From Phascolarctobacterium sp. (GTDB lineage Bacteria > Bacillota > Negativicutes > Acidaminococcales > Acidaminococcaceae): DNA of 64,000 nt. Below, piece by piece: positions 11,041 to 54,999 of this stretch. Below the pieces are notes generated by a model. The model was not told the DNA's origin. It worked only from the letters and a program-made list of their open reading frames with translations, and ran no database searches. The first letter of the stretch is position 1, and every line of letters begins with the position of its first letter. The DNA lies in NCBI RefSeq assembly GCF_030531065.1, contig NZ_JAUNOQ010000007.1:62001-126000 (forward strand), written 5' to 3'. Position numbers and translations under genes: made by a program.

Positions 11041-11991
11041 TTACTTTGAACTAAACCAGCCTATAGTTCCCTCAAAACCACATGATCTTATTTCATCAGA
11101 ATAATCGTTATGAGCGTAATCATTCATATACCATACTGCATTTTCAGTATTAATTCTTTCACATATTTCTTGTATATAAGGCAAATCTACTTTAGAAAAA
11201 CTAAATCCATAAGAATATATTTCGGTTATATTATTTTCCTCAAGCAAATCAAAAAACTCAGAATGAGTGTCTAGTACTTGATTTGTATCTTTTTTAAGTA
11301 TTTCCATAGTATCTTTCAGTTCTTGTTCTGCACCAGTAAACTTTCCTTCAAATAATTCAGTTTTTAACTCAATTTCCTCGTCACTTAATCCATGTCCAAT
11401 AATCAATTCTTCCCCAACAGTTCCATGTAAATAACAAATGTTTTCACTTTTTATATTGTATACTTCTTCCAACGTCTTCGTATAATTAAAATTTAAGAAA
11501 AGAGTTTCTTCTGTCATTAATAACTTTAATCCATCTATAGCAACTGCTTTATTAACATCAACAGTACTTATCCAATCCGAAAAATAATCCGATAGATGCC
11601 TGCAAGTAACGTTAATTCTCTCCCCTATATTTTGACGATTATATGCAGTCCTCCACTCATCAATGTCTCCTTCTTTATCATACACTTCGTTAAAATCCGA
11701 TTCTGAAAAAGCATAATCAAATTGTAGTTTTCCAAGATTACTTTCAAAATAATTCCACTCTATATCATCGCAGCAATAATTGCTGAAATCTAAAAGTTGA
11801 TACAAATAACGTCCAGTTCGTTCTTTGTCAATTCTTATTTCTCCATGGTTATCTATTCCAATATCCGGAAGCATACAATGTTCGTATTCTCTAGCATATT
11901 CTTCAAACATGTATTTTTTAAAATCACAATACTTCGTCGGTAATCCATTGGCTATGTCAAATCCATTACCAATAATAAACAATCTTCCCAT
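11041..11991 (-). CDS. AbiH-family abortive-infection protein
   Basis: A 316-residue protein of the AbiH family (phage abortive infection, first known from Lactococcus plasmids). The N-terminus LFIIGNGFDIANGLPTKYCDF and the central FLNFNYTKTLEEVYNI, then ICYLHGTVGEELIIGHG, are the family marks. The glycine-rich start resembles a nucleotide-binding turn, but its ligand is unknown. Start ATG at 11991 follows GAGGTGAGG. It lies 97 bases downstream of the HD-domain gene on the same strand. AT-rich compared with the housekeeping genes, which fits horizontal transfer. Confidence 0.82.
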   Translation of the reverse strand: MGRLFIIGNGFDIANGLPTKYCDFKKYMFEEYAREYEHCMLPDIGIDNHGEIRIDKERTGRYLYQLLDFSNYCCDDIEWNYFESNLGKLQFDYAFSESDFNEVYDKEGDIDEWRTAYNRQNIGERINVTCRHLSDYFSDWISTVDVNKAVAIDGLKLLMTEETLFLNFNYTKTLEEVYNIKSENICYLHGTVGEELIIGHGLSDEEIELKTELFEGKFTGAEQELKDTMEILKKDTNQVLDTHSEFFDLLEENNITEIYSYGFSFSKVDLPYIQEICERINTENAVWYMNDYAHNDYSDEIRSCGFEGTIGWFSSK

Positions 11992-12088: not shown

Positions 12089-13741
12089 TCAACATGGAGT
12101 TAATCTAAATTGCGGATACTGCTTGATATATTCAATTAACTTATTTTTATATTTATAATTATTTTCACTTAACTTGATTTTATCTTCTTTACTACAATAC
12201 AAATAAAAAAACGGAGGCACTTCTGCTTTCTTATATAGATCGCTAAATATCGTATCAAATGAATATAATTTATTGTTGATATAAATCATGATTGAGTTGT
12301 GTTCTATATGCGTTAACTTGGTTTTATTCACCACAATATCAAAATTAAATTTATATTCACCTTCCGGGCTAAAATCATTTATATATTTTTTAAAGTCGTC
12401 TAAGTCATTATCGTTGCCATCTCTTTTTAAAAAAGCTTCCATCTGTTCTGTAGAAAAACTGCCTATTGGTGTAATATTATCAGAAGCGCTAAAATATGCT
12501 TGAAATTCTGCAAAACTTTTCCAAATAGCTTTCTTTCGTTTATTTCTACTAATAACGACTTCTACTTCAGGAATATTTCGATTATCCATAAAAAGATTCC
12601 ATATTGCATCATCACTAATTAAACATTTTTCTATGCTATCAGTAGAAAAATATTTCGTTATAAACTCTTGAGGCGTTTCCTTTTTTTCAGCTTTTTCAGC
12701 TATCATCTTTACAGCAGTCTCTATCAAATATCCTTCATACGCAACTTTATGATGTGCATATATCCAAGTATGTAAAGCATTTCTAGAATTTACGACATTT
12801 TGTATAACCCCCACGGCTGTCTTTTGAAACGCTAAACAAATCTTTTGTCGTTTATCTGTATCACTATAAATAGCAAATACCAATGAACCAAGCAATCTTT
12901 TGGTATCAACCATGGTATTAGCAAATCCGGAAACAGCAGAATCTCTAGTAATGTAATCTAACTTATCAACATCAATTGACGAATTTAATAATTTGATGAT
13001 ACAGTTTTTAAACCTATTGATATCGGTGTCATTACTGTAAAGTGCCCCTAAAATACATCTTGCTAAAAATAAATATAAAGTTTTAATACCATTTTCACTA
13101 GTTTTTCCAGTATCTTCATTCCGTTCTTCAGCAATTTTAGCTAATATATCCTTATAACATTTAAATATCAAAATACAACTAGCTATTTCATGTGGTGCAG
13201 CCCCCGAAGCATTGCAATCAGCTTTAAATTCTTCAAAGTTTTCTTCTTCGACAGAAGAATTTATCTTGCCTGCCACCTCATAAAATTCTTCTAATATATC
13301 TCGAGAATATAATTTGCCATTCTCGTCACGTTTAGCAATTTCCTTAAAATAACCTTCTAAAGTATGAGAAAAAGGAGAATGTCCCACATCGTGCAAAAGA
13401 GCAGCCATTTCAAAAGAAAAATATATAGTTTCTATTTCTCGTGCTTCTGGCAAATTATATTTTTCTTCATTATCAACATTATTATCACTAATTGTAACAA
13501 AGCCATTTTTCTTTAAAGCATTTATTGCCACTCTTGCTAAATGGTATACACCAATCGAATGTATAAATCTATCATGCCTTGCAGAAGGATACAAACACCT
13601 CATGCTGGTTTGTTCTATCCTGCGTAATCTTTGAAAATATTTGCTATCAATGATTTTTTCACATATATTATTGTCAATTTTAATATAATCATACAAAGGA
13701 TCTTTGAAAACCTTTTTGAAAATTTTAGCCACTCTAATCAC
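12089..13741 (-). CDS. HD-domain phosphohydrolase (dNTPase-like)
   Basis: A 550-residue HD-superfamily protein of the COG1078/dGTPase-like type. The metal-binding set is visible: RHDRFIHSIGVYHLA, ALLHDVGHSPFSHTLEGYF and LDYITRDS. The opening KIFKKVFKDPLYDYIKID also fits the family. Such enzymes hydrolyse dNTPs or nucleotide second messengers; several dNTPases act in phage defence by depleting nucleotides. The start is probably GTG at 13741, 8 bases after the stop of the small upstream gene, with a weak ribosome site that suggests coupling. The C-terminal third is unrecognised. Confidence 0.8.
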   Translation of the reverse strand: MIRVAKIFKKVFKDPLYDYIKIDNNICEKIIDSKYFQRLRRIEQTSMRCLYPSARHDRFIHSIGVYHLARVAINALKKNGFVTISDNNVDNEEKYNLPEAREIETIYFSFEMAALLHDVGHSPFSHTLEGYFKEIAKRDENGKLYSRDILEEFYEVAGKINSSVEEENFEEFKADCNASGAAPHEIASCILIFKCYKDILAKIAEERNEDTGKTSENGIKTLYLFLARCILGALYSNDTDINRFKNCIIKLLNSSIDVDKLDYITRDSAVSGFANTMVDTKRLLGSLVFAIYSDTDKRQKICLAFQKTAVGVIQNVVNSRNALHTWIYAHHKVAYEGYLIETAVKMIAEKAEKKETPQEFITKYFSTDSIEKCLISDDAIWNLFMDNRNIPEVEVVISRNKRKKAIWKSFAEFQAYFSASDNITPIGSFSTEQMEAFLKRDGNDNDLDDFKKYINDFSPEGEYKFNFDIVVNKTKLTHIEHNSIMIYINNKLYSFDTIFSDLYKKAEVPPFFYLYCSKEDKIKLSENNYKYKNKLIEYIKQYPQFRLTPC

Positions 13742-14094: not shown

Positions 14095-15219
14095 CTATTT
14101 TCTCCAAACCATCTTATTCACAATGCTGGTATAGCTTTGAATTATTTTAATAACTTTAGTGGAAACATTTTCATCTGCATAATCTGGTACGGTAATACCA
14201 TTATCATTATTCATATGCATAGCTACAGCTAATTCAACCGCTTGCACAACCTGCTCTTTCCCAATGCTACCAATAATAAATACTCCCTTATCAATAGCTT
14301 CAGGCCGTTCTGTGCTTGTTCTTATAGATACAGCCGGAAACTTAAAATAACTTGCTTCCTCAGGTAGTGTTCCAGAATCACTCACTACGCAAAACGCATG
14401 TTGCTGTAAACAGTTATAATCAAAAAAACCAAACGGTTGCAAAGTTCTCACTAATGGATGAAATTTAAAATTTCTCTTCTCAATAAACTTTTTACTACGC
14501 GGATGTGTGCTATATATAACAGGCATATGATATGTTTCTGCCATATAATTTACAGAATTCATTAACGAAAAAAAGTTCTCTTCAATATCAATATTTTCTT
14601 CTCTATGAGCAGAAAGCAAGATATACCTACCATCTTGCAATTCAAGTTCCTCCAAAACTTTACTAGCGTTTATACTTTCTATATTTTTTTGCAATACTTC
14701 TGCCATAGGCGAACCAACAACATATGTACGTTCTTTAGCAACCCCAGAAGCATTCAAATATCTTCGTGCATGCTCTGTATAACACAAATTTACATCGCTG
14801 GTAACATCTACAATTCTGCGATTAACTTCCTCTGGTAGGTTTTCATCAAAACACCTATTGCCCGCTTCCATATGAAACACCGGTATCTTTAACCTTTTGG
14901 CAGCAATGACTGATAAACAAGAATTGGTATCGCCTAATACTAATAAAGCCTCCGGTTTCACTTCTTCCATCAATTCATATGATTTGGCAATTGCATTACC
15001 GATTGTCTGCCCTAAATTATCACCGACAATACCTAGATAATAATCAGGCTCACGTAAACCAAGTTCATCAAAAAAAATCTTATTCAAAGTATAGTCATAA
15101 TTTTGTCCAGTATGAACCAAAATATGTTCAAAATACTTATCGCATTTTTTTATTACTTCTGAAAGCTTAATTATTTCTGGTCGAGTACCAACTATAGTCA
15201 TAACTCTTAATTTTCGCAT
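14095..15219 (-). CDS. Non-hydrolysing UDP-N-acetylhexosamine 2-epimerase (WecB/CapG/FnlC-like)
   Basis: A 374-residue UDP-GlcNAc 2-epimerase fold enzyme. Recognisable family motifs are IVGTRPEIIKLSEV, HTGQNYDYTL, LVLGDTNS, HMEAGNR, SAHREENID and SDSGTLPEEASYF. In this locus it follows a 4,6-dehydratase/5-epimerase and an RmlD-like reductase, so it most likely performs the final C2 epimerisation of a UDP-2-acetamido-2,6-dideoxy-L-sugar rather than making ManNAc. Last gene of the minus-strand polysaccharide locus. Confidence 0.88.
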   Translation of the reverse strand: MRKLRVMTIVGTRPEIIKLSEVIKKCDKYFEHILVHTGQNYDYTLNKIFFDELGLREPDYYLGIVGDNLGQTIGNAIAKSYELMEEVKPEALLVLGDTNSCLSVIAAKRLKIPVFHMEAGNRCFDENLPEEVNRRIVDVTSDVNLCYTEHARRYLNASGVAKERTYVVGSPMAEVLQKNIESINASKVLEELELQDGRYILLSAHREENIDIEENFFSLMNSVNYMAETYHMPVIYSTHPRSKKFIEKRNFKFHPLVRTLQPFGFFDYNCLQQHAFCVVSDSGTLPEEASYFKFPAVSIRTSTERPEAIDKGVFIIGSIGKEQVVQAVELAVAMHMNNDNGITVPDYADENVSTKVIKIIQSYTSIVNKMVWRK

Positions 15220-15228
15220 AATATCACC

Positions 15229-16086
15229 CTATTCAGCAAAATAATGTGGATAAAGTTTTTTATGAGTCTTTACCCATTCAACCATCTCTTTTATCATATC
15301 TTCATACACCGGTACAATAAAATCAAAATCATTTCGTGTATTGATAATAGATTTGTTAAGATTAACTCCATCCACGCAGCTAATTTCTAATTTATTATTT
15401 TTAAAATACTTATTAAAAAGGCACAATAAATCGTATTTGCAAATATTTTCATTATTAGTTAAATGATATACTCCAACCAACCCATCTTTTGCTGCCTTTT
15501 CCATCGCTTTTGCAAGCGTTAATGTAGTAACACCTGACCAGATAGATTTTTTATATCCGTTAATTGGACCTTTCTGTTTCATAAACCAATTAAACAAGCC
15601 TATACCATTTTCACTAATATCTGGTCCAACGATGGAATTTCTAAAGGTAAGATTCTTTAAATCGTTTATCTCCCCTAAAGCTTTACTTCTATCATAAAAG
15701 GTACTTCCATCAGGAAATGAATTCTCCGCATAATTGCCTTTCCGCCCTGAAAAAACACAATCCGTACTCATATGAATAATTCTTGTTTTTAAGGCGCTCG
15801 TAACCTTCACCAACCAATGTGGGAGAAAGCTGTTTAAAAATACTGCATTAGCTTTATCATTATCAGCAAACTGATTTAAAGAACCTATGCAATTAATAAT
15901 GTAATCGTAATTACCTTGTGCAATTACATTCTCCAGCATACCCAATTCAGTTACATCACAAACAATATTATTCCCATAAGAAAAGGGTTTCCTAGACAAG
16001 GTATCAACTTCATATCCTTGTTCTAGCAAATAAATACTTATGGTATGCCCAGACATACCGGTAGCGCCTAAAACTAAAAATTTCAT
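15229..16086 (-). CDS. RmlD-like SDR reductase for a UDP-4-keto-deoxyaminosugar
   Basis: A 285-residue short-chain dehydrogenase with Rossmann motif LGATGMSGHTI at the N-terminus, MSTDCVFSGRKGNY and the catalytic FYDRSKALGE (YxxxK). It resembles dTDP-4-dehydrorhamnose reductases. It lacks the C-terminal cupin domain present in the roughly 370-residue CapF/FnlB/WbjC enzymes that make UDP-L-FucNAc precursors. Its length is closer to WbvR-like reductases of the L-QuiNAc route. It sits between the dehydratase and 2-epimerase genes. Confidence 0.82.
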   Translation of the reverse strand: MKFLVLGATGMSGHTISIYLLEQGYEVDTLSRKPFSYGNNIVCDVTELGMLENVIAQGNYDYIINCIGSLNQFADNDKANAVFLNSFLPHWLVKVTSALKTRIIHMSTDCVFSGRKGNYAENSFPDGSTFYDRSKALGEINDLKNLTFRNSIVGPDISENGIGLFNWFMKQKGPINGYKKSIWSGVTTLTLAKAMEKAAKDGLVGVYHLTNNENICKYDLLCLFNKYFKNNKLEISCVDGVNLNKSIINTRNDFDFIVPVYEDMIKEMVEWVKTHKKLYPHYFAE

Positions 16087-16101: not shown

Positions 16102-17115
16102 TTACTCCAAACCCAATTCTTCCCGAATAAATGGTAAAGATAAAAGTTTTTCTTTTACCCCATTAACATCTAATCTAGTAGTGTTATGCGATGTATACGC
16201 TTCAATTTTTTCAAAATCCGGCGTTCCTTTAACAAAATATTTATCATAATTCAAATCTCTTTTGTCTGCAGAAACTCTAAAATATTCACCATGATCTTCA
16301 CTTTTCAGCTTCTCTTCTTTAGTTAGAAGCGTTTCGTATAATTTTTCACCATGACGAGTACCAATAATTCTTACAGGTTTCTCGTAGTTAAATAATTCAG
16401 AGATGGCTTCTGCTAAATCCTTAATTGTGCTAGCAGGAGCTTTTTGAATAAATAAATCGCCAGGTTCTGCATGCTTGAAAGCGTACAGCACAAGGTCAAC
16501 GGCTTCATCTAAGCTCATTAAAAAGCGCGTCATATTAGGGTCGGTAACAGTTAATTGCTTGCCTGCCTTAATTTGATCGACAAACAGCGGAATTACAGAA
16601 CCTCTAGACGCCATTACATTGCCATATCTGGTACAGCAAATTACTGTTTTTTGTGGATCTACTGTTCTAGATTTAGCTATAATTACCTTTTCCATCATTG
16701 CTTTAGATATACCCATAGCATTGATTGGATAGGCCGCTTTATCAGTAGACAAACAAACCACTCTCTTTACCCCTGCTTCAATAGCAGCTGTTAATACATT
16801 TTCGGTTCCCAAAACATTAGTCTTAACTGCTTCTAACGGGAAAAACTCACAAGACGGAACTTGCTTCAATGCAGCTGCATGAAAAATATAATCAACGCCA
16901 TGCATCACATTTTTAACGCTCTGAATATCACGAACATCGCCAATATGAAATTTAATCTTATCATTTTGATACAGTTTACGCATATCATCCTGCTTTTTTT
17001 CATCACGAGAAAAAATGCGAATTTCGCCAATATCAGTATTTAAAAATCTCTTCAATACTGCATTGCCAAAAGAACCAGTACCGCCAGTAATTAATAAAGT
17101 CTTGCCTTTAAACAT
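16102..17115 (-). CDS. UDP-GlcNAc 4,6-dehydratase/5-epimerase (CapE/FnlA/WbjB-like)
   Basis: A 337-residue extended SDR. NAD-binding ITGGTGSFGNAVLKRF opens the protein; the active site reads STDKAAYPINAMGISKAMMEK, where the usual tyrosine of YxxxK is methionine, as in the FlaA1/CapE dehydratases. It makes a UDP-2-acetamido-4-keto-2,6-dideoxy-L-sugar from UDP-GlcNAc. The ATG at 17115 is nine bases after GGAGG; an in-frame TTG three codons earlier is too close. First enzyme of the three-step sugar module. Confidence 0.88.
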   Translation of the reverse strand: MFKGKTLLITGGTGSFGNAVLKRFLNTDIGEIRIFSRDEKKQDDMRKLYQNDKIKFHIGDVRDIQSVKNVMHGVDYIFHAAALKQVPSCEFFPLEAVKTNVLGTENVLTAAIEAGVKRVVCLSTDKAAYPINAMGISKAMMEKVIIAKSRTVDPQKTVICCTRYGNVMASRGSVIPLFVDQIKAGKQLTVTDPNMTRFLMSLDEAVDLVLYAFKHAEPGDLFIQKAPASTIKDLAEAISELFNYEKPVRIIGTRHGEKLYETLLTKEEKLKSEDHGEYFRVSADKRDLNYDKYFVKGTPDFEKIEAYTSHNTTRLDVNGVKEKLLSLPFIREELGLE

Positions 17116-17131
17116 ATCATACAACCTCCAA

Positions 17132-18137
17132 TTAAATAAACTTATTAATAAATGAAAACCTTTTTATAATCAACCCTAAAATTACACAAAACAAAAAAGT
17201 TAATACACTTAAAAATATAGAAGATAATATGGGATGATTAGCAGAATAAAAATTATGCGAATAAAGTTTACTGTATAAAATATCCAAAACCAATACATGG
17301 GATAAATAGCAAAAAAATGTTATTTTACTCATAGATACTAAGATAGAAGATACATACTTATTAGAGAGCAGTCTATGAGAAGATTTAATTAGTACAAAAA
17401 ATAAGCAACTGCCACAAAAAACGAAAAAATTATCCATAGTTATAAAACTTTCATTATACATCCCTGACACCTTACTTGCATCAATAGTCAACTTAGCAAT
17501 AATTAAAACACTACTAATAACCCCCCCCAGCTTGAACAAACGTTCTCTTGTTGATAAATTCAAAATTAGCCAAATAATATCCAGCAATCACATATATTAC
17601 GCAAGTAGGTATAATAGTGAAGCTAATAGGTAAATACGAAGAATGATATGTAAATATCGTTTTGCACAATATTATTGAAGTTGACAAAGTCCAAAACCAT
17701 TTCCAATCCTGAAAACTCATACCATAAAGCATTTTACATAAAAAAGGTATCAATAAATATACTCCTAGCAATGCGTACAAGAACCACATATGATACATTA
17801 CCTTATCATGTAAAATATCGCTTAAAATACTTAAAAATGTTTTATTAACTCCACAGCGTATTAAATAAAATTCATAAAAAAAAGACCAAAAAAGCAGAGG
17901 ATATAATATTCTTTTGACTCTTTTATACAAACTGTCAATTTTAAAATCAGCTTTCAATACGCTAGCTCCACTGCACATAAAAAAAATTGGGACAGCTAAT
18001 CTTGTAAATGTATTTAAAAATACAAATTCATTAAAGAATTTACCATTATAATCATATATTGCATAAGCAGTGGAATGTAATAACACTACACCATATGCGC
18101 TTATAATTCTCAAAAAATCAATATACTTTTCTCTCAT
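17132..18137 (-). pseudogene. Acyltransferase-3 family O-acetylase, frame broken at a G8 tract (possible phase variation)
   Basis: Two overlapping frames together make a membrane acyltransferase of about 334 residues. The N-terminal frame (18137 to 17514) has REKYIDFLRIISAYGVVLLHS, the catalytic histidine segment of the family, and many helices. It ends in GGGY-stop right after a run of eight Gs on the minus strand (17521-17528 plus-strand Cs). Removing one G continues as GGVISSVLIIAKLTID into the second frame (to 17132), which completes the hydrophobic C-terminus. The enzyme would O-acetylate the surface glycan of this locus. It is a switchable gene in the OFF state, a recent mutation, or a sequencing error. 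Confidence 0.8.
17521..17528. repeat. Homopolymer G8 tract (C8 on plus strand)
   Basis: Eight identical bases inside the acyltransferase gene, exactly at the frame break. Tracts of this kind slip during replication and can switch a gene on and off. Confidence 0.8.
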
Positions 18138-19370
18138 TTATTTCCTCTTTATAATATTTTGATATAAGTCTAACATGGTATCAAAATAAGTGTTCTCATC
18201 ATACTTGCTTTCAGCTAACTCTCTGCATAACTTTCCCCGCTTTATCCTCTCGTTCTCATTATTTATCAACAATTCCACTTTATAAACAAAATCATTAATA
18301 TCATTTTTATGGAATGCCATTCCACACCGCGGGGCATCTACGACATCTGGTAATGCAGTTCCTTCCATAACAATAACAGGAACGCTAGATGCCATAGCTT
18401 CTATAGCCATTACACCAAATGCCTCAGCTGTTGAAGGCATCAAAAAAATATCGGCACTAGCATATAAATCAGAAATACCGTCTTCATTATTAAGCCAACC
18501 AAAATCTTTAACCTTATATCTAAGCCTAAACCTATTAAGTAATCCTGCTTCGCCAACTGTGAGCAAAGTAATATGATTCCTTACATCAAGTTTATCAAGC
18601 ATATCCTTTATCAAATCTAATCCCTTATATACACTTCTATCAGCTCTAAAAAATAACACTATTTCATCTTGAGTGATTCCTAGTTTTTTCCTTATTCTAT
18701 TTTTTCTATTATCATCTACTTTATACTTCTCTAAATTAATACCAAAAGGAATAATATGTATTCTTTTGAGGGATTTTGTAATAGGACTCTCATCGATTAA
18801 ATTCTTCATCCACTTAGACGCTACAACAATGTCAATATCCAAACTATTAAATATTCTCTTCTTAAGATCCCACATATAAGCAGCATTATCTCTTAACATA
18901 CTAAAATTTCTATCTAAATTTTCGCAGCATTCACATCCTGAAAGATATTTTCGACAATCCATCGGATAAATACAATGTCCAGTAAAAACCCATGGATCAT
19001 GAATTGTCCAAACAGATTTCTTCAACGATACTAGCTTAGGAAAATCTAATATTGACAATATATAATTGTGAATTAAATGATAGTGCACTATATCTGCATC
19101 AACAAACTCCTTCATTTTCATTATTTTATGTGCATATGGAAAAACTATACTTTTAATAGAATGTTCATTTTCAAATTCTCTATATATCACAGATGTATTG
19201 ACACTATCCGAAAATGTAATAACATTTTCATCATTACTAAGCTTTTCATATACTAATTGCTTTGTACTAATTCCTCTTGAGTTAAAATTCTTTTGTAAAT
19301 TATACCCATTAAACCTTGCACCAGGTAAATCTGTATTATTAATCTGTACAATGTTCATAATTAGTATCAC
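18138..19370 (-). CDS. Glycosyltransferase family 4
   Basis: A 410-residue GT-B glycosyltransferase of the GT4 type. The donor-binding domain contains VLFFRADRSVYKGLDLI and the retaining-enzyme motif TAEAFGVMAIEAMASSVPVIV with the two conserved glutamates. A cysteine cluster, HCIYPMDCRKYLSGCECCE, in the N-terminal half is a feature of some capsule GT4 enzymes. Start is either a GTG at 19370 or an ATG at 19358; both overlap the upstream gene. It should add one sugar of the surface repeat unit; donor and acceptor are unknown. Confidence 0.88.
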   Translation of the reverse strand: MILIMNIVQINNTDLPGARFNGYNLQKNFNSRGISTKQLVYEKLSNDENVITFSDSVNTSVIYREFENEHSIKSIVFPYAHKIMKMKEFVDADIVHYHLIHNYILSILDFPKLVSLKKSVWTIHDPWVFTGHCIYPMDCRKYLSGCECCENLDRNFSMLRDNAAYMWDLKKRIFNSLDIDIVVASKWMKNLIDESPITKSLKRIHIIPFGINLEKYKVDDNRKNRIRKKLGITQDEIVLFFRADRSVYKGLDLIKDMLDKLDVRNHITLLTVGEAGLLNRFRLRYKVKDFGWLNNEDGISDLYASADIFLMPSTAEAFGVMAIEAMASSVPVIVMEGTALPDVVDAPRCGMAFHKNDINDFVYKVELLINNENERIKRGKLCRELAESKYDENTYFDTMLDLYQNIIKRK

Positions 19371-20562
19371 GCATCCCTAATGACTTATAAAATGATTTTT
19401 TCATAGTTTCATTTGTTAAAAATTTAAGAAACAATTGATATCCATTCATACCTATGCTTTCACGATTTCCATCATTAATTATTAGTTTTACTTTCTCGGC
19501 TATATCATCAATATTTGTGGTATTGCACACGTATCCCGTAATACCATCTTTAATAAAGTTACTTATGGAAGAATATACAGGTGCATGTACCAAAACTGGT
19601 ACCCCAGATTTTAAGTAACTTGTTAATTTTGATGGAAATGATAATCTAGCTATAACCTCAAATTTCTTATCAAATCTGTAAGGACAATAACATAAGTCCA
19701 TACAACTCAACCTTTTTAACAGTTCTTCCTGAGGTATCCAACCACTACTTTTAATGTTAGGATGTTGCTTTAGAATAACAGTATCAATATAGTCGGTGAA
19801 TACATAAAGTATTATTCTTTTTCCTTGATAGGTCCACTTAATACTATCTAATGAATCAATAAAAGCAGAGAATTCATTTTTAGAATATATTTGTCCAGAA
19901 TACCCTATATGAAACTCACTATTATCACTTTTTTTTATGAAAGGAGAATAGGCTTTCAAACTCGGTATTACAGGTACACATACAGCACTATATTTCTCTT
20001 TATACTCTTTTGCCATATTATGAGAAGCAGCAAGACAACACTTTGCATTCAAAAGAAGCCTTTTAAAAGCTTTCATTACCTTATGATAAGAATAAGAATC
20101 AAAATGGTTCTCATCCAACCACCATTCAGGAGGATCCCATATTTCAACCACATATTCTAAATTTAACTTATTCGCTACTTTTGGTACTAAACAGATCATA
20201 GTCTGTCCCTGTATGACACTCCATATTAAATCAAAAGTATTGTTACTATTCCTTATTTCATTGGATATTTTATTGGCCAGAAATGGTAAGAAAATTTTTC
20301 TATTATAATTATTAAAAATCAGTGAATTTAAAGCACCAAATTTTCGTCTTCCATAACCTTCATTAGGTTTATCAAACGAAAGAAAAACAGAAAATTTTTC
20401 TCTAATACTATCAGGAATACACGGTGTCAAAGAAGGATCCACAATACTTACACAACTGACCTGATGCCCCTCTTCAAATAAGAATTCACATAATTGCTTT
20501 TGTACTAGGCCTGCAGTATAGTTGGTACAAGGGGGTATATCTGTTAGTAACAATATGTGCAT
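19339..20562 (-). CDS. Glycosyltransferase family 4-like protein
   Basis: A 407-residue GT-B protein. The N-terminus HILLLTDIPPCTNYTAGLVQKQL is a typical acceptor-domain start; the C-terminal half holds HIGYSGQIYSKNEFSAFIDSL and a donor-site SFPSKLTSYLKSGVPVLVHAP. It overlaps the next glycosyltransferase by about 30 bases, so the two are cotranscribed. The donor is unknown. The region is AT-rich, as capsule loci often are. Confidence 0.85.
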   Translation of the reverse strand: MHILLLTDIPPCTNYTAGLVQKQLCEFLFEEGHQVSCVSIVDPSLTPCIPDSIREKFSVFLSFDKPNEGYGRRKFGALNSLIFNNYNRKIFLPFLANKISNEIRNSNNTFDLIWSVIQGQTMICLVPKVANKLNLEYVVEIWDPPEWWLDENHFDSYSYHKVMKAFKRLLLNAKCCLAASHNMAKEYKEKYSAVCVPVIPSLKAYSPFIKKSDNSEFHIGYSGQIYSKNEFSAFIDSLDSIKWTYQGKRIILYVFTDYIDTVILKQHPNIKSSGWIPQEELLKRLSCMDLCYCPYRFDKKFEVIARLSFPSKLTSYLKSGVPVLVHAPVYSSISNFIKDGITGYVCNTTNIDDIAEKVKLIINDGNRESIGMNGYQLFLKFLTNETMKKSFYKSLGMRDTNYEHCTD

Positions 20563-20836: not shown

Positions 20837-20886
20837 AAGAGTGCCTTTCATCAGGTGTTAATTTATTGTAAAAATTTTTATCGTAA

Positions 20887-22130
20887 ATTGCAATAACAAG
20901 TTGAACATTTTTGCTGAACAATCCATAACGTCAAAAGGTAGCTTATATGCGCTATATACCTGTTACGCGATACTTGCTTATGCTGCAAAACCATAAATTT
21001 TATCTAACTCAGCTTCAAAAACTTCATCCGATGTCTTGTAGCCTAGAATCCTTCTGGGCAGGCTGTTACACCAGATTTCTATCTGGCAGAGCTGTTCATT
21101 GCTATAGCTATCTATGCGCTTGCCTTTAGGAATAAATCTCCTCAGAAGCCCATTGTGTCTTTCAATAGAGCCTTTTTCGCATGAGGTATATGGGTGTGCA
21201 AAGTAAACTAGCGTCTTGCTTATCCCCTCTAGATCGCTAAGCTTAGCAAACTCAGAGCCGTTATCTGTAGTTATCGTCTTAAAGATTTCGTTCCAATGTT
21301 CACTGTATTGGGAACGGATTTCTTCCAGTGCTTGCATTACAGATTGAGCATCTTTCCCTGGTAGTCGTATTACCAAAAACTCTCTGCTCATTCGTTCTAG
21401 CATTGTCAGCAAAGCATCATCTTCATCAGACTTAGAACCAATTACTAGATCACATTCCCAATGCCCAAACTCTTTACGAGCTTCGATTTCTTTGTCCCGT
21501 TCCTCAATGCTGCGCCCAAGGACACGCTTGGCTTCGCGCTCCCTGGCTTTCTTAGGGCTACGCTTCAATTTTTCCGGGAGATCAATATTCTTTATGCCTA
21601 ATAATCCAAGCCCAATGTAATTATACAAAGTTTTGACGCATACGATCTGTTCTCTAGAGAAAGAGCCATCTTGTAAGGCACGGCCTACGCAGGAATCTAA
21701 AGACCATTTATCCTCAAAAAAATGCTGTTCAACATACTGGATAAAAGCATCTTTTTCAAGGCGATCATAATTACGGCGAGAAGCTTGGCGGTTTTGTTCG
21801 TAAGCAGCTTGCCCGGCATTGGCTTTGTAACGATGAGACTTCCCCTTGGGCGAAGAGACAGTTCCGCGCTTGATTTCATTGCGAATGGTATTTGGAGCAC
21901 AACCTATTTCTTTAGCAATCCGGTTAGGGGTCCAGCCGTCTTTGAGGCGGATTTCGATAAGAATGCGTTCATCTTTTGAAAGATGTTGTCCCTTTTTATG
22001 TTCATTTGTGGTAGAATATACTTGATCCATAGAGTTCATCTCCTTTGAATTATGTTTGGTCACATATATTCTACCAGAGAAATGCTCTATGGATTTTCTT
22101 TTTTCTACATGTTCAACTTCATTTTACAAT
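20887..22130 (-). mobile_element. IS30-family insertion sequence
   Basis: About 1244 bp bounded by imperfect terminal inverted repeats: 20887-20908 and 22109-22130 match at 18 of 22 positions when one is reversed, both ending in GTTGAACAT. It holds a single transposase gene. No clear 2-3 bp target duplication was found at these edges, so the exact ends are uncertain or the flanks come from a deletion. The left flank is the polysaccharide locus, the right flank a phage gene remnant. Confidence 0.8.
20978..22030 (-). CDS. IS30-family transposase
   Basis: A 350-residue transposase. The N-terminal helix-turn-helix reads LSKDERILIEIRLKDGWTPN and IAKEIGCAPNTIRNEIKRG. The DDE catalytic core shows HWECDLVIGSK, then TTDNGSEFAKL and the glutamate in FAHPYTSCEKGSIERHNGLLRRF. 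Start ATG at 22030 is preceded by AAAGGAG; the longer open frame upstream is not needed. Apparently intact, so the element may still be mobile. Confidence 0.92.
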   Translation of the reverse strand: MDQVYSTTNEHKKGQHLSKDERILIEIRLKDGWTPNRIAKEIGCAPNTIRNEIKRGTVSSPKGKSHRYKANAGQAAYEQNRQASRRNYDRLEKDAFIQYVEQHFFEDKWSLDSCVGRALQDGSFSREQIVCVKTLYNYIGLGLLGIKNIDLPEKLKRSPKKAREREAKRVLGRSIEERDKEIEARKEFGHWECDLVIGSKSDEDDALLTMLERMSREFLVIRLPGKDAQSVMQALEEIRSQYSEHWNEIFKTITTDNGSEFAKLSDLEGISKTLVYFAHPYTSCEKGSIERHNGLLRRFIPKGKRIDSYSNEQLCQIEIWCNSLPRRILGYKTSDEVFEAELDKIYGFAA

Positions 22131-22243
22131 CAACCAACAAAATGTTGACTACCCCGGAAACTCCCGGTGTTGCGAACATAAAAAAGGCTACGATGGAAAT
22201 ACCGTGCTTCGATAGGGAAGTCGATGGGGTTGTCGTACAGTGA
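22131..22243 (+). pseudogene. 3' remnant of a phage gene cut by IS30
   Basis: An open frame runs out of the IS30 end and finishes with NIKKATMEIPCFDREVDGVVVQ-stop. Its stop overlaps the GTG start of the terminase gene, as in tightly packed phage genes. The N-terminal part is missing. In T7-like phages a small terminase subunit or lysis gene lies in this region, but no homology can be claimed from 37 residues. Confidence 0.5.
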
Positions 22244-23997
22244 TTTACTGGGACGACGAACAGGTTAAACGTGCAAAGGGAGACTTCCGGGTCTTCCTTT
22301 TTATCGTTTGGAAAGAGATAGGTCTTCCTAATCCTACGCCTATTCAGATTGATATGGCGCACACCTTGCAATACCCACCGAATGACCGCTTTATCTTGGA
22401 GGGCTTCCGTGGTGTTGCTAAGAGCTTCATTACGTGCGCCTTTGCTGTATGGACGTTGTGGAATGACCCACAGAAGAAGGTACTGATTGTATCTGCTTCT
22501 AAAGACAGGGCAGACGCTAACGCAATATTTATCAAAAGGATTATTTTTGCGCTAGAATTTCTGACGTTCCTTAGACCACGTAAAGACCAGCGCGATACAC
22601 AGAACATCTTTGACGTAGCACCTGCTGTGCCCGACATCTCTCCCAGTGTTAAGTCTGTGGGTATCACTGGACAAATCACTGGTTCCCGTGCTGATGTCTT
22701 AATCGCCGATGATGTGGAGATTCCTAACAACAGCGGTACGCAGGTACAGCGCGACAAACTGTCCGAAGCTGTTAAAGAATTTGATAGTATCATCAAACCT
22801 AAAGGCCGTATCATTTACCTTGGTACGCCGCAGAATGAGATGTCTTTGTACAACGAACTGCAAAACCGTGGTTATGATTGTATCATCTATCCGGTAGTAT
22901 ATCCCGAAGACAACACTATTCGTGAATTTTATGGAGAACGTCTTGCTAAAATTATTGCGGATAAATACGACAGTAACCCTATGGCATATGCAGGGTATCC
23001 GACAGACCCCCAACGCTTCAATGAGGAAGAAATTGATGCGCGGCGGTTGTCTTATGGTAAAGCTGGTTTTGCCCTGCAATTCCTGCTGAATACCAACCTG
23101 TCCGACGCAGAGAAGTATCCGCTCAAAGTTGCTGACCTTATTGTCACCGCGCTGGATATGCGTGAAAGCTCATTGATATGGGCGTGGGCAAGCGGTAATC
23201 AACAGCGGCACACAGACCTACCTTGCGTCGCTCTGAAAGGCGACTATTTCTATGCACCTTTGAGCAGGTCTAATGAAACGGCGAAGTATCAGACGGTTAT
23301 CATGTTCGTAGACCCGTCCGGTCGTGGGCGAGACGAGACGGCTTACGCTATTGTTGCTTTCCTGAATGGTTATCTATTCCTGCTTGATGTCGATGGCTTC
23401 CAAGATGGTTATTCTGATGACGTTCTGCGCAATATCGCTACCCGTGCGAAAGCTTTTAACGTCAACACCATTCTCGTAGAGCCTAACTTTGGTAATGGTA
23501 TGTTCGCAAAGCTGTTAATACCTTTTGTGAACAAGATTTATCCGGGGTGCGCCGTAGAGGATAGCAAGACGGCTTCTGTGCAGAAAGAAGCGCGTATCAT
23601 AGATACCCTTGAACCTGTGATGATGCGGCACAAGCTGATAGTCAACCAGCAGGTCATTGAGAATGACTATAAGGTGTATGAGCGCGACCCACAATACAGC
23701 CTTATTTATCAGATGACAAGGCTTTCACGAGACCGTGGTGCGCTTGCCCATGATGACCGCCTTGATGCCGTCGAGGGCGCAGTTGCATATTTCTTGGAGA
23801 TGGTCAGTATGTCCGAGCAGCAGGGCTTAGACGAACTCAACGAGGAACAGCTTGAGAAGTGGCTTGACCCTGACTATGGTATATTCTATAAAGATGAAAA
23901 TAGCATACAGGATAATAAGCTATTGCAGAAGAAAAAGCAAAATGACTTCTCAAAGTACAATGTTCTCGGAAAATATTATGCGGTTAGACATGGCTAA
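22240..23997 (+). CDS. T7-like phage terminase large subunit (gp19/DNA maturase B type)
   Basis: A 585-residue packaging motor and nuclease. The ATPase half has LEGFRGVAKSFITCAF (Walker A variant), KVLIVSASKDRADANAIFIK, SVGITGQITGSRADVLIADDVEIP (Walker B) and IYLGTPQNEMSLY, all very like T7 gp19. The nuclease half has VDPSGRGRDETAYAIV, VEPNFGNGM and HDDRLDAV, giving the acidic metal site. It appears full length, with a GTG start overlapping the previous stop. No capsid, portal or polymerase genes are nearby, so it belongs to a deleted prophage. Confidence 0.92.
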   Translation: MIYWDDEQVKRAKGDFRVFLFIVWKEIGLPNPTPIQIDMAHTLQYPPNDRFILEGFRGVAKSFITCAFAVWTLWNDPQKKVLIVSASKDRADANAIFIKRIIFALEFLTFLRPRKDQRDTQNIFDVAPAVPDISPSVKSVGITGQITGSRADVLIADDVEIPNNSGTQVQRDKLSEAVKEFDSIIKPKGRIIYLGTPQNEMSLYNELQNRGYDCIIYPVVYPEDNTIREFYGERLAKIIADKYDSNPMAYAGYPTDPQRFNEEEIDARRLSYGKAGFALQFLLNTNLSDAEKYPLKVADLIVTALDMRESSLIWAWASGNQQRHTDLPCVALKGDYFYAPLSRSNETAKYQTVIMFVDPSGRGRDETAYAIVAFLNGYLFLLDVDGFQDGYSDDVLRNIATRAKAFNVNTILVEPNFGNGMFAKLLIPFVNKIYPGCAVEDSKTASVQKEARIIDTLEPVMMRHKLIVNQQVIENDYKVYERDPQYSLIYQMTRLSRDRGALAHDDRLDAVEGAVAYFLEMVSMSEQQGLDELNEEQLEKWLDPDYGIFYKDENSIQDNKLLQKKKQNDFSKYNVLGKYYAVRHG

Positions 23998-41930: not shown

Positions 41931-42031
41931 AGCTTCATCTGCCGGAAAACTCCGTTGGAATTGGCACCGTTCACCGGGGTGTGGTTGCCGTAGCTTCATC
42001 GGGCCAGTCCCTCAGCTACTCTTGATGAAAT
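41931..42031 (-). promoter_or_regulatory. SAM-I (S-box) riboswitch
   Basis: The minus strand shows the S-box core in order: TTCATCAAGAGTAGCTGAGG, GACTGGCCCGATGAAGC, ACGGCAACC, GGTGCCAATTCC and the closing GATGAAG that pairs with the 5' TTCATC. High SAM favours the terminator at 41889-41913 and shuts metNIQ off. Confidence 0.95.
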
Positions 42032-53943: not shown

Positions 53944-54246
53944 ATCTATCCCTTCTTTCTCACAATTGTTAGCCTAACCAGCCTAACCGGCTTAGTTTTA
54001 TTATATGTTATTGTTTTAAGGGATGTCAAGCGTATTATCCTCTTAAGATATATTGATGGAACGCTTTACTGGCGGCAGTCTTTTGTTAATCGTAATTTAT
54101 TTTCTGTGACTAAGGCTTTCAATGCTATTGCCCGCGCGTCAGCGCGGCAAAAAAAGTCGCTCGACGCGACTTTTGTTTTACAGGGGGGGACGAGAGTATA
54201 TAATATAAGTGCATTTAGCACTATCTATATTAAGGAGGAATTATCT
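53944..54246. other. Intergenic region with terminator and promoter of the exported-protein cluster
   Basis: AAAAGTCGC (54152-54160) pairs with GCGACTTTT (54166-54174). TTTACA (54177-54182), 16 bases, TATAAT (54199-54204) form the promoter, followed by GTGCATTTAGCAC at the likely start. No gene seen. Confidence 0.6.
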
Positions 54247-54999
54247 ATGATGAAAAAATTTGTTACTGCTGCCGTTGTCGCCGCTTTAGTCGGCGTTTCT
54301 TCTACTTGCCTGGCTGGGTTCGGCCTGCCGAAAATTGGCGGCGGTTCGAAAGCTCCCGCCGCTAGCGCGCAGGAAGAAAAGAGTGCGCCGGTGGATATCA
54401 GTAATATAACTAATAAACAAGTTGAAATTTTACGCTATACGTCAGGTGCTTTATATGCTCAAATAAGATCATTAGAGGTAGTGCGTGAAGCTTTGGGGTG
54501 CGCTGATCCTAAATTGGCGGAAGCAGCAAGCTCTTTAAAGGGTGGCTCTAATTCTAAACTGAAGAAGGCTAAGACAGTATTTGACAATTCGTCCAAAACA
54601 TTATCGGAAGACGCTAAAAAAGCTGCGGCTGCCAATAAAATACAGGTAGACAAACTAGCCGGAGCAATCAAAACAGGTAAAGTATATCAACAAGCGGCTT
54701 TGGTAAACTACGGCTTTGTCGCTGCTCACGCACCGGCAGCTTTACAGGAAGCCGGCTCTGCTGTGAAGAATGTTGGTAAGGATATTAACGCCGTAAATAA
54801 AATAAATGGCGCCATCGCTACTTTTAAACTTGGTTCTGAATATGCTGCCGCTTCTCAAAAAGTAAATTCTGACTATAATCAAGCTGTTGGCGCTATGAAA
54901 ACTGATTACGGCGTAACAGACGAAGCTATGGCCAATGCTCCTGCGCCGGATGTAACTAGCATCGCCGACGAATGCCTGGCTTTTGTAGATAAAAAATAA
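54247..54999 (+). CDS. Exported protein of unknown function (first gene of the five-gene cluster)
   Basis: A 250-residue protein with signal peptide KKFVTAAVVAALVGVSSTCLA and a mature start at about residue 24. A glycine/serine linker is followed by a long helical, alanine-rich domain (residues about 50-250: SLEVVREALGCADPKLAEAAS; KKAKTVFDNSSKTLSEDAKKAAAANK), likely a helical bundle. AAGGAGG lies eight bases before ATG 54247; the next codon is also ATG. No family recognised. Two bases separate it from the next gene. Confidence 0.8.
   Translation: MMKKFVTAAVVAALVGVSSTCLAGFGLPKIGGGSKAPAASAQEEKSAPVDISNITNKQVEILRYTSGALYAQIRSLEVVREALGCADPKLAEAASSLKGGSNSKLKKAKTVFDNSSKTLSEDAKKAAAANKIQVDKLAGAIKTGKVYQQAALVNYGFVAAHAPAALQEAGSAVKNVGKDINAVNKINGAIATFKLGSEYAAASQKVNSDYNQAVGAMKTDYGVTDEAMANAPAPDVTSIADECLAFVDKK

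Follow-up and report, generated by a model that had tools for sequence, protein, structure and literature searches.

A putative phase-variable acyltransferase gene at a poly-G tract in a surface-polysaccharide cluster of a gut Acidaminococcaceae bacterium

Introduction

Slippery repeats that switch surface glycans and adhesins at random are known above all from pathogens of the genera Neisseria, Haemophilus, Helicobacter and Campylobacter. The copy of Haemophilus influenzae oafA that was sequenced first was frameshifted. Among the acyltransferase-3 (AT3) O-acetyltransferases, this gene, which modifies LOS, and Salmonella oafB, which modifies the O-antigen, have been reported to be phase variable, and oafB switches by an epigenetic route and not by slippage (PMC9558356). 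In Neisseria lgtA, the parent carries eight Gs and an inactive variant nine (PMC3447861), and for Campylobacter jejuni NCTC11168 one report gives 29 loci with poly-G/C tracts of at least 7 (PMC4965091). Homopolymers are found ahead of genes as well: Neisseria opc shows lower expression with C11 and high expression with C12 in its promoter (PMC3447861), and Neisseria fetA has an intergenic C10-14 tract (PMC5953494).

Here, we analyzed a window (the whole stretch of 64,000 nucleotides under study) from a gut member of the Acidaminococcaceae (Negativicutes) near Phascolarctobacterium, in which an AT3 gene of a surface-polysaccharide cluster is probably phase variable, as judged from its sequence and from related genomes. 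Like oafA and oafB, it encodes an AT3 protein for a surface glycan, the acylation by the window protein being predicted. With lgtA and the C. jejuni poly-G loci, it shares the character of a surface-glycan gene whose frame is set by the length of a G tract. Poly-G promoters of the same genome resemble opc and fetA in carrying a homopolymer in the promoter region, the length of which, in Neisseria, sets the expression of an outer-membrane protein. In the open literature, the coverage of which leaves out most subscription journals, we found no report of poly-G phase variation in Negativicutes.

Results

A split AT3 gene at a G8 tract

The AT3 gene occupies 17132-18137 on the minus strand and consists of two frames, broken exactly at a G8 tract:

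17521..17528, minus strand: G8 homopolymer tract, CCCCCCCC (C8 on the plus strand), where slippage is proposed to occur
17514..18137, minus strand: N-terminal AT3 frame, 207 aa, with a stop just past the tract; PF01757 profile 2-204; motifs R10-X10-H21 and RVKR 73-76
17132..17587, minus strand: C-terminal AT3 frame, open across the tract, with the last hydrophobic helices; PF01757 profile 213-324

The N-terminal frame begins with an ATG at 18137 and covers 609 bases (203 codons) ahead of the tract, where it reads GGG GGG GGT TAT TAG and ends in G-G-G-Y after 207 aa. The C-terminal frame is open from 17587 to 17132 and runs through the tract, which lies within an overlap of the two frames of only about 71-74 bp. 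The frames join at a tract length of 1 modulo 3 (G7, G10), and the joined product has 334 aa. Compared with PF01757 (Acyl_transf_3), the N-terminal half matched profile positions 2-204 (E 3.7e-25, 89.1 bits) and the C-terminal half positions 213-324 (E 2.6e-7, 30.5 bits), and the joined protein matched as one domain over positions 2-324 of 326 (121.1 bits, cut-off 31). No further frameshift or stop was found when the joined frame was scanned over its 334 residues.

Of all homopolymers in the gene, the tract is the longest. The 132 codons left beyond it stay open and retain the match to PF01757. Both motifs defined for AT3 enzymes, R-X10-H and RXXR (PMC9833829), are present in the window protein, as R10/H21 in helix 1 and as RVKR at 73-76. 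A hydropathy scan placed hydrophobic segments across both halves, the scan being too coarse to count helices in a family with about 10 transmembrane segments. The gene shows two features of simple-sequence-repeat contingency loci: an in-frame homopolymer of at least 7 (here G8), and a frame arithmetic by which a change in tract length would give either the full-length or a shortened product, the gene being otherwise undamaged.

These results bear out a sequence-only reading of this DNA. It had claimed that the N-terminal frame ends three codons past the G8 tract, that one G fewer would yield an acyltransferase-3 of about 334 residues, and that the frame is on at G7 or G10 and off at G8; the frames and coordinates agreed when they were read again, and the frame arithmetic is correct. 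It had also held that a G8 fixed in all strains, with further decay downstream, would refute switching; in this genome the C-terminal half is without a further stop or frameshift.

Neighborhood of the gene

The AT3 gene is flanked by the following features:

18138..19370, minus strand: group 1 glycosyltransferase, upstream neighbor (PF00534)
19339..20562, minus strand: second group 1 glycosyltransferase, upstream (PF00534)
20868..22149, minus strand: IS30-type element at the upstream cluster edge, with the transposase at 20978-22063 and imperfect 41-bp inverted ends
16102..17124, minus strand: Polysacc_synt_2 nucleotide-sugar dehydratase, downstream, CapE/FnlA-like by domain and order (PF02719, PF08485)
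15229..16086, minus strand: RmlD-like reductase, downstream, CapF/FnlB-like by order (PF04321)
14095..15219, minus strand: UDP-GlcNAc 2-epimerase family protein, downstream, CapG/FnlC-like by order (PF02350)

In domains and order, the dehydratase, reductase and epimerase resemble what we take to be the CapE/CapF/CapG route to an N-acetylfucosamine sugar. The IS30-type element may have cut off the original head of the glycan cluster.

Other features of the window include a 585-aa gene with a T7-type terminase RNase H-like domain (22240-23997, plus strand), which adjoins the IS30-type element and is perhaps a prophage remnant. An AbiH-like abortive-infection gene and an HD-domain gene (11041-11991, 12089-13741) lie just downstream of the glycan cluster, and a SAM riboswitch (RF00162) lies at 41932-42031 on the minus strand.

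Long G tracts across the genome

The draft assembly comprises 2.37 Mb in 27 contigs. It holds 12 tracts of at least eight Gs (G≥8), all 12 at surface or contingency-type sites, compared with about 0.7 expected per genome from a roughly tenfold decay in run length per added base in tract-free sequence, which is a rough extrapolation from 229 kb. In a simple dinucleotide shuffle of the window, a G8 was not rare.

Half of the 12 tracts lie in genes and half in the spacers between -35 and -10 boxes. Four of the coding tracts are in AT3 genes, namely the window gene (G8, broken) and those at loci L027 (G8, broken), L025 (C10, open) and L030 (C9, open). In the genome, five AT3 genes score well and a sixth scores weakly, and four AT3 genes carry such a tract; for 4 of 12 tracts to lie within about 6 kb of AT3 sequence, P is about 2e-8. 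The other two coding tracts lie at the start of a GT2 gene with an open frame (L023) and in a YrbL-like gene (L031) that is broken at the tract, its halves matching PF10707 at 1-144 and 135-183. All six promoter tracts have a 17-bp spacing, and the genes behind them encode two trimeric (YadA-anchor) and two classical autotransporters, a TonB receptor and a GNAT-domain protein, so that five of the six promoters precede outer-membrane proteins. The GNAT-domain gene is followed by a radical-SAM-like gene, a reading made by eye. Coding genes with G7 in the same assembly are open, including tgt- and dnaX-like genes, as are three of the six coding G≥8 tracts. The window AT3 gene belongs to a set of poly-G sites that extends across the genome.

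Shorter tracts were also seen in other genes of this genome. An HsdS type I restriction specificity subunit (PF01420; L123, G000:C26, near 180324-180332) contains an in-frame G7 and possibly belongs to a phase-variable methylation system. Four more genes, for a sulfatase-fold membrane enzyme, a GT8, a Wzy_C-domain protein and a GT2 (L116, L110, L090, L089), have a G7 tract within or bordering them, and all four are open.

AT3 homologues in related genomes

Close homologues of the N-terminal half were sought in named genomes, and none was found; a search of 60 relatives returned distant matches only. The closest homologue of the window gene that we found has 31% identity and comes from a genome in another family of the class (G179). 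It too is broken at a G7 tract, which lies near codon 32 and thus at another position than in the window gene. The L027 gene of our genome has a homologue in G033 with 70% nucleotide identity and a tract at the same aligned site. The tract is G7 in G033, with the frame intact through W-G-G-L-S-L-E-L, and G8 in L027, with the frame broken. AT3 genes broken with the tract inside the frame overlap were found in G007 (G6), G024 (G8), G030 (C10) and G179 (G7), and open ones in G031 (G8) and G033 (G7).

A G/C run of at least 7 within about 4 kb was absent from the 30 best AT3 loci of the family; therefore, such tracts are no general trait of AT3 genes. Additionally, the AT3 genes of G007:C1, G082 and G062 are split without a tract, and ordinary decay of AT3 genes therefore also occurs. 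The sequence-only reading had proposed counting tract lengths in related genomes. Among sister AT3 genes, these lengths do differ (G033 open at G7 versus L027 broken at G8); for the window gene itself, the comparison reached no homologue closer than the one in G179.

Poly-G promoters

At least 36 promoters of this genome carry poly-G in the -35/-10 spacer. The genome has 44 exact G7 tracts, 30 of them in a 16-bp promoter spacer, and the plan that is repeated reads TTGNNN, mostly G7, about 9 bp and TATAAT. Among the first genes behind the G7 promoters, about a dozen have an autotransporter N-terminal sequence (assigned by the N terminus), two have a YadA-type start, and three are taken as OmpM-like, two of them read directly and the third predicted from a promoter of identical type close to the end of a contig. 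G7 promoters also head six polyprenyl-phosphate sugar transferases (PF02397 confirmed in five), which start clusters of glycosyltransferase-type (polysaccharide-type) genes. In the L023 and L027 clusters, GT or AT3 genes that follow on the same strand contain second tracts. The gene at L025 has the same orientation as the head at L198, which it follows at a distance of about 15 kb. About 9 kb separate the gene at L030 from the upstream head at L199, with one gene of opposite orientation in that interval; in both cases, the genes between were examined in part. A poly-G promoter of this type also lies within the window:

54177..54204, plus strand: poly-G promoter TTTACA - G7 + 9 bp (16-bp spacer) - TATAAT, ahead of 54247-54999

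The gene behind it (54247-54999) encodes 250 aa with a signal-peptide-like start, and the 354-aa open frame that holds this gene gave no family match in Pfam.

Among 59 family genomes, 23 contained the pattern CTTGNNNGGGGGN{7,17}TATAAT, at 112 sites in total, and the reversed control gave 0 matches; the pattern was also present in 90 of 380 class genomes, with a few reversed-control matches there. Named records with the motif include Phascolarctobacterium (among them the isolate P. faecium DSM 14760), Succiniclasticum and Anaerovibrio. G7 accounts for 78 and G8 for 25 of the 112 sites, and the spacer measures 16 bp at 85 and 17 bp at 15. Some promoters have near-identical flanks and unlike numbers of G, for instance G8 in G032 and G7 in G070 before one and the same OmpM-like gene, and G7/G9/G7 in G068/G033/G024; therefore, the G tract is the variable part of the poly-G promoters. 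In 12 of the 17 groups with identical flanks, the number of Gs is uniform. Because G7 with a 16-bp spacer is so common, the poly-G promoters may be a conserved regulatory element rather than a switch. The viral contigs searched lacked the pattern, which gives no hint that these promoters are a phage trait.

We also considered whether poly-G promoters serve tRNA genes and dismissed this, as ARAGORN found 1 tRNA in 29 loci, and this one was not downstream of the promoter. Three loci (L026, L028 and L029) share a GC-rich piece upstream of the promoter, with an inverted repeat of the GCAAAAGTGC...GCACTTTTGC type just before the -35 box.

Discussion

Overall, we propose that the window AT3 gene is a phase-variable (contingency) gene, to which we assign a probability of about 0.83. 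Slipped-strand mispairing during replication would alter the length of the G tract. One length in three, 1 modulo 3 (G7, G10), would give the complete 334-residue enzyme, and the other lengths would give a truncated membrane protein that lacks the last helices. In the sequenced G8 state, the stop at residue 207 falls past the catalytic motifs, and the enzyme is predicted to be off because translation ends before the last hydrophobic helices. A population would then be a mix of cells with and without the acyl group on their glycan. The family of the protein and the neighboring glycan genes point to a putative O-acetylation of a surface glycan. We infer reversibility within one strain, the acetyl donor and the glycan acceptor. 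More broadly, poly-G runs in dozens of other surface genes and promoters of this bacterium and its relatives suggest that it reshuffles its surface at random.

The comparative sequence evidence supports a contingency locus over decay or random error. A contingency function predicts convergent tracts at different positions with both states seen, which single decay events do not. We consider it unlikely that the gene is a pseudogene, inactivated by a single G insertion and now decaying, its function lost for good in the population. Such a history would suit the fast turnover of genes in glycan clusters, the IS30-type element at the cluster edge and those split AT3 genes of the family that lack a tract. 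However, the lesion is a lone one placed exactly at the longest homopolymer of the gene, with the following 132 codons open and domain-matching. Moreover, in several genomes, AT3 genes unrelated to it carry breaks at tracts of their own, other tract-bearing ones being intact. A sequencing or assembly error, by which the true tract would be G7 and the gene simply intact, appears more improbable still, although homopolymers are the commonest place for such errors and the assembly is a draft in 27 contigs. The open G7 coding genes, tgt- and dnaX-like ones included, and the three open G≥8 tracts among six show that a run in this assembly does not always come with a broken gene; moreover, even if the error were real, the presence of the tract and the way such tracts are distributed would continue to point to a contingency locus.

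We give the lowest probability to slippage during expression, in which RNA polymerase or the ribosome would slip at the G run and some full-length protein would be made in every cell from unchanged DNA. The overlap of the frames, with the tract inside it, is what a slippery site needs. However, such slippage would lead one to expect a fixed length in homologues; instead, G7 and G8 occur at a homologous site, and elsewhere in the family the tract has a different position or is missing. Phase variation itself also faces counter-points: G8 is at the short end of the tracts known for frequent switching, and the differences in tract length are known between paralogues and species only. It remains our preferred reading, and the earlier suggestion of a likely phase-variable gene has gained support from the genome-wide distribution of tracts, the enrichment in AT3 genes, the G7-open and G8-broken homologues and the closest homologue being broken at its own tract.

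Poly-G phase variation as such, phase-variable AT3 genes, and both intragenic and promoter tracts are already known. Beyond these, Negativicutes may possess a class-wide, two-level poly-G contingency system, with G6-G10 promoter spacers and second tracts inside cluster genes (acyltransferase, glycosyltransferase and others), a proposal whose chances we judge to be evenly balanced. In such a system, a shared poly-G promoter would head autotransporters, OmpM-type porins, TonB receptors and whole polysaccharide clusters, and slippage would set both the glycan cluster that is transcribed and the decoration of its product. If this is true, consensus assemblies would show as "broken" many surface genes that are merely off.

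Compared with Salmonella oafB, the window gene differs in that its candidate switch is an intragenic G tract and its host is a diderm member of the Bacillota. It differs from lgtA and the C. jejuni loci in its distant lineage (Negativicutes), in tracts that are mostly short and in length differences that lie between paralogues or species. The poly-G promoters differ from those of opc and fetA in that one plan recurs at 36 or more sites in this one genome, including the heads of polysaccharide-type clusters; promoter switching is less certain here than in opc and fetA because the 16-bp spacing dominates, and the repeated plan may count as novel if switching is shown. If switching at such a scale holds true in gut diderm Firmicutes, it would be a large, cheap and testable source of surface diversity in commensals, with a bearing on phage attack, host immunity and niche competition. 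Such poly-G diversity would be comparable to the many switchable capsules of Bacteroides.
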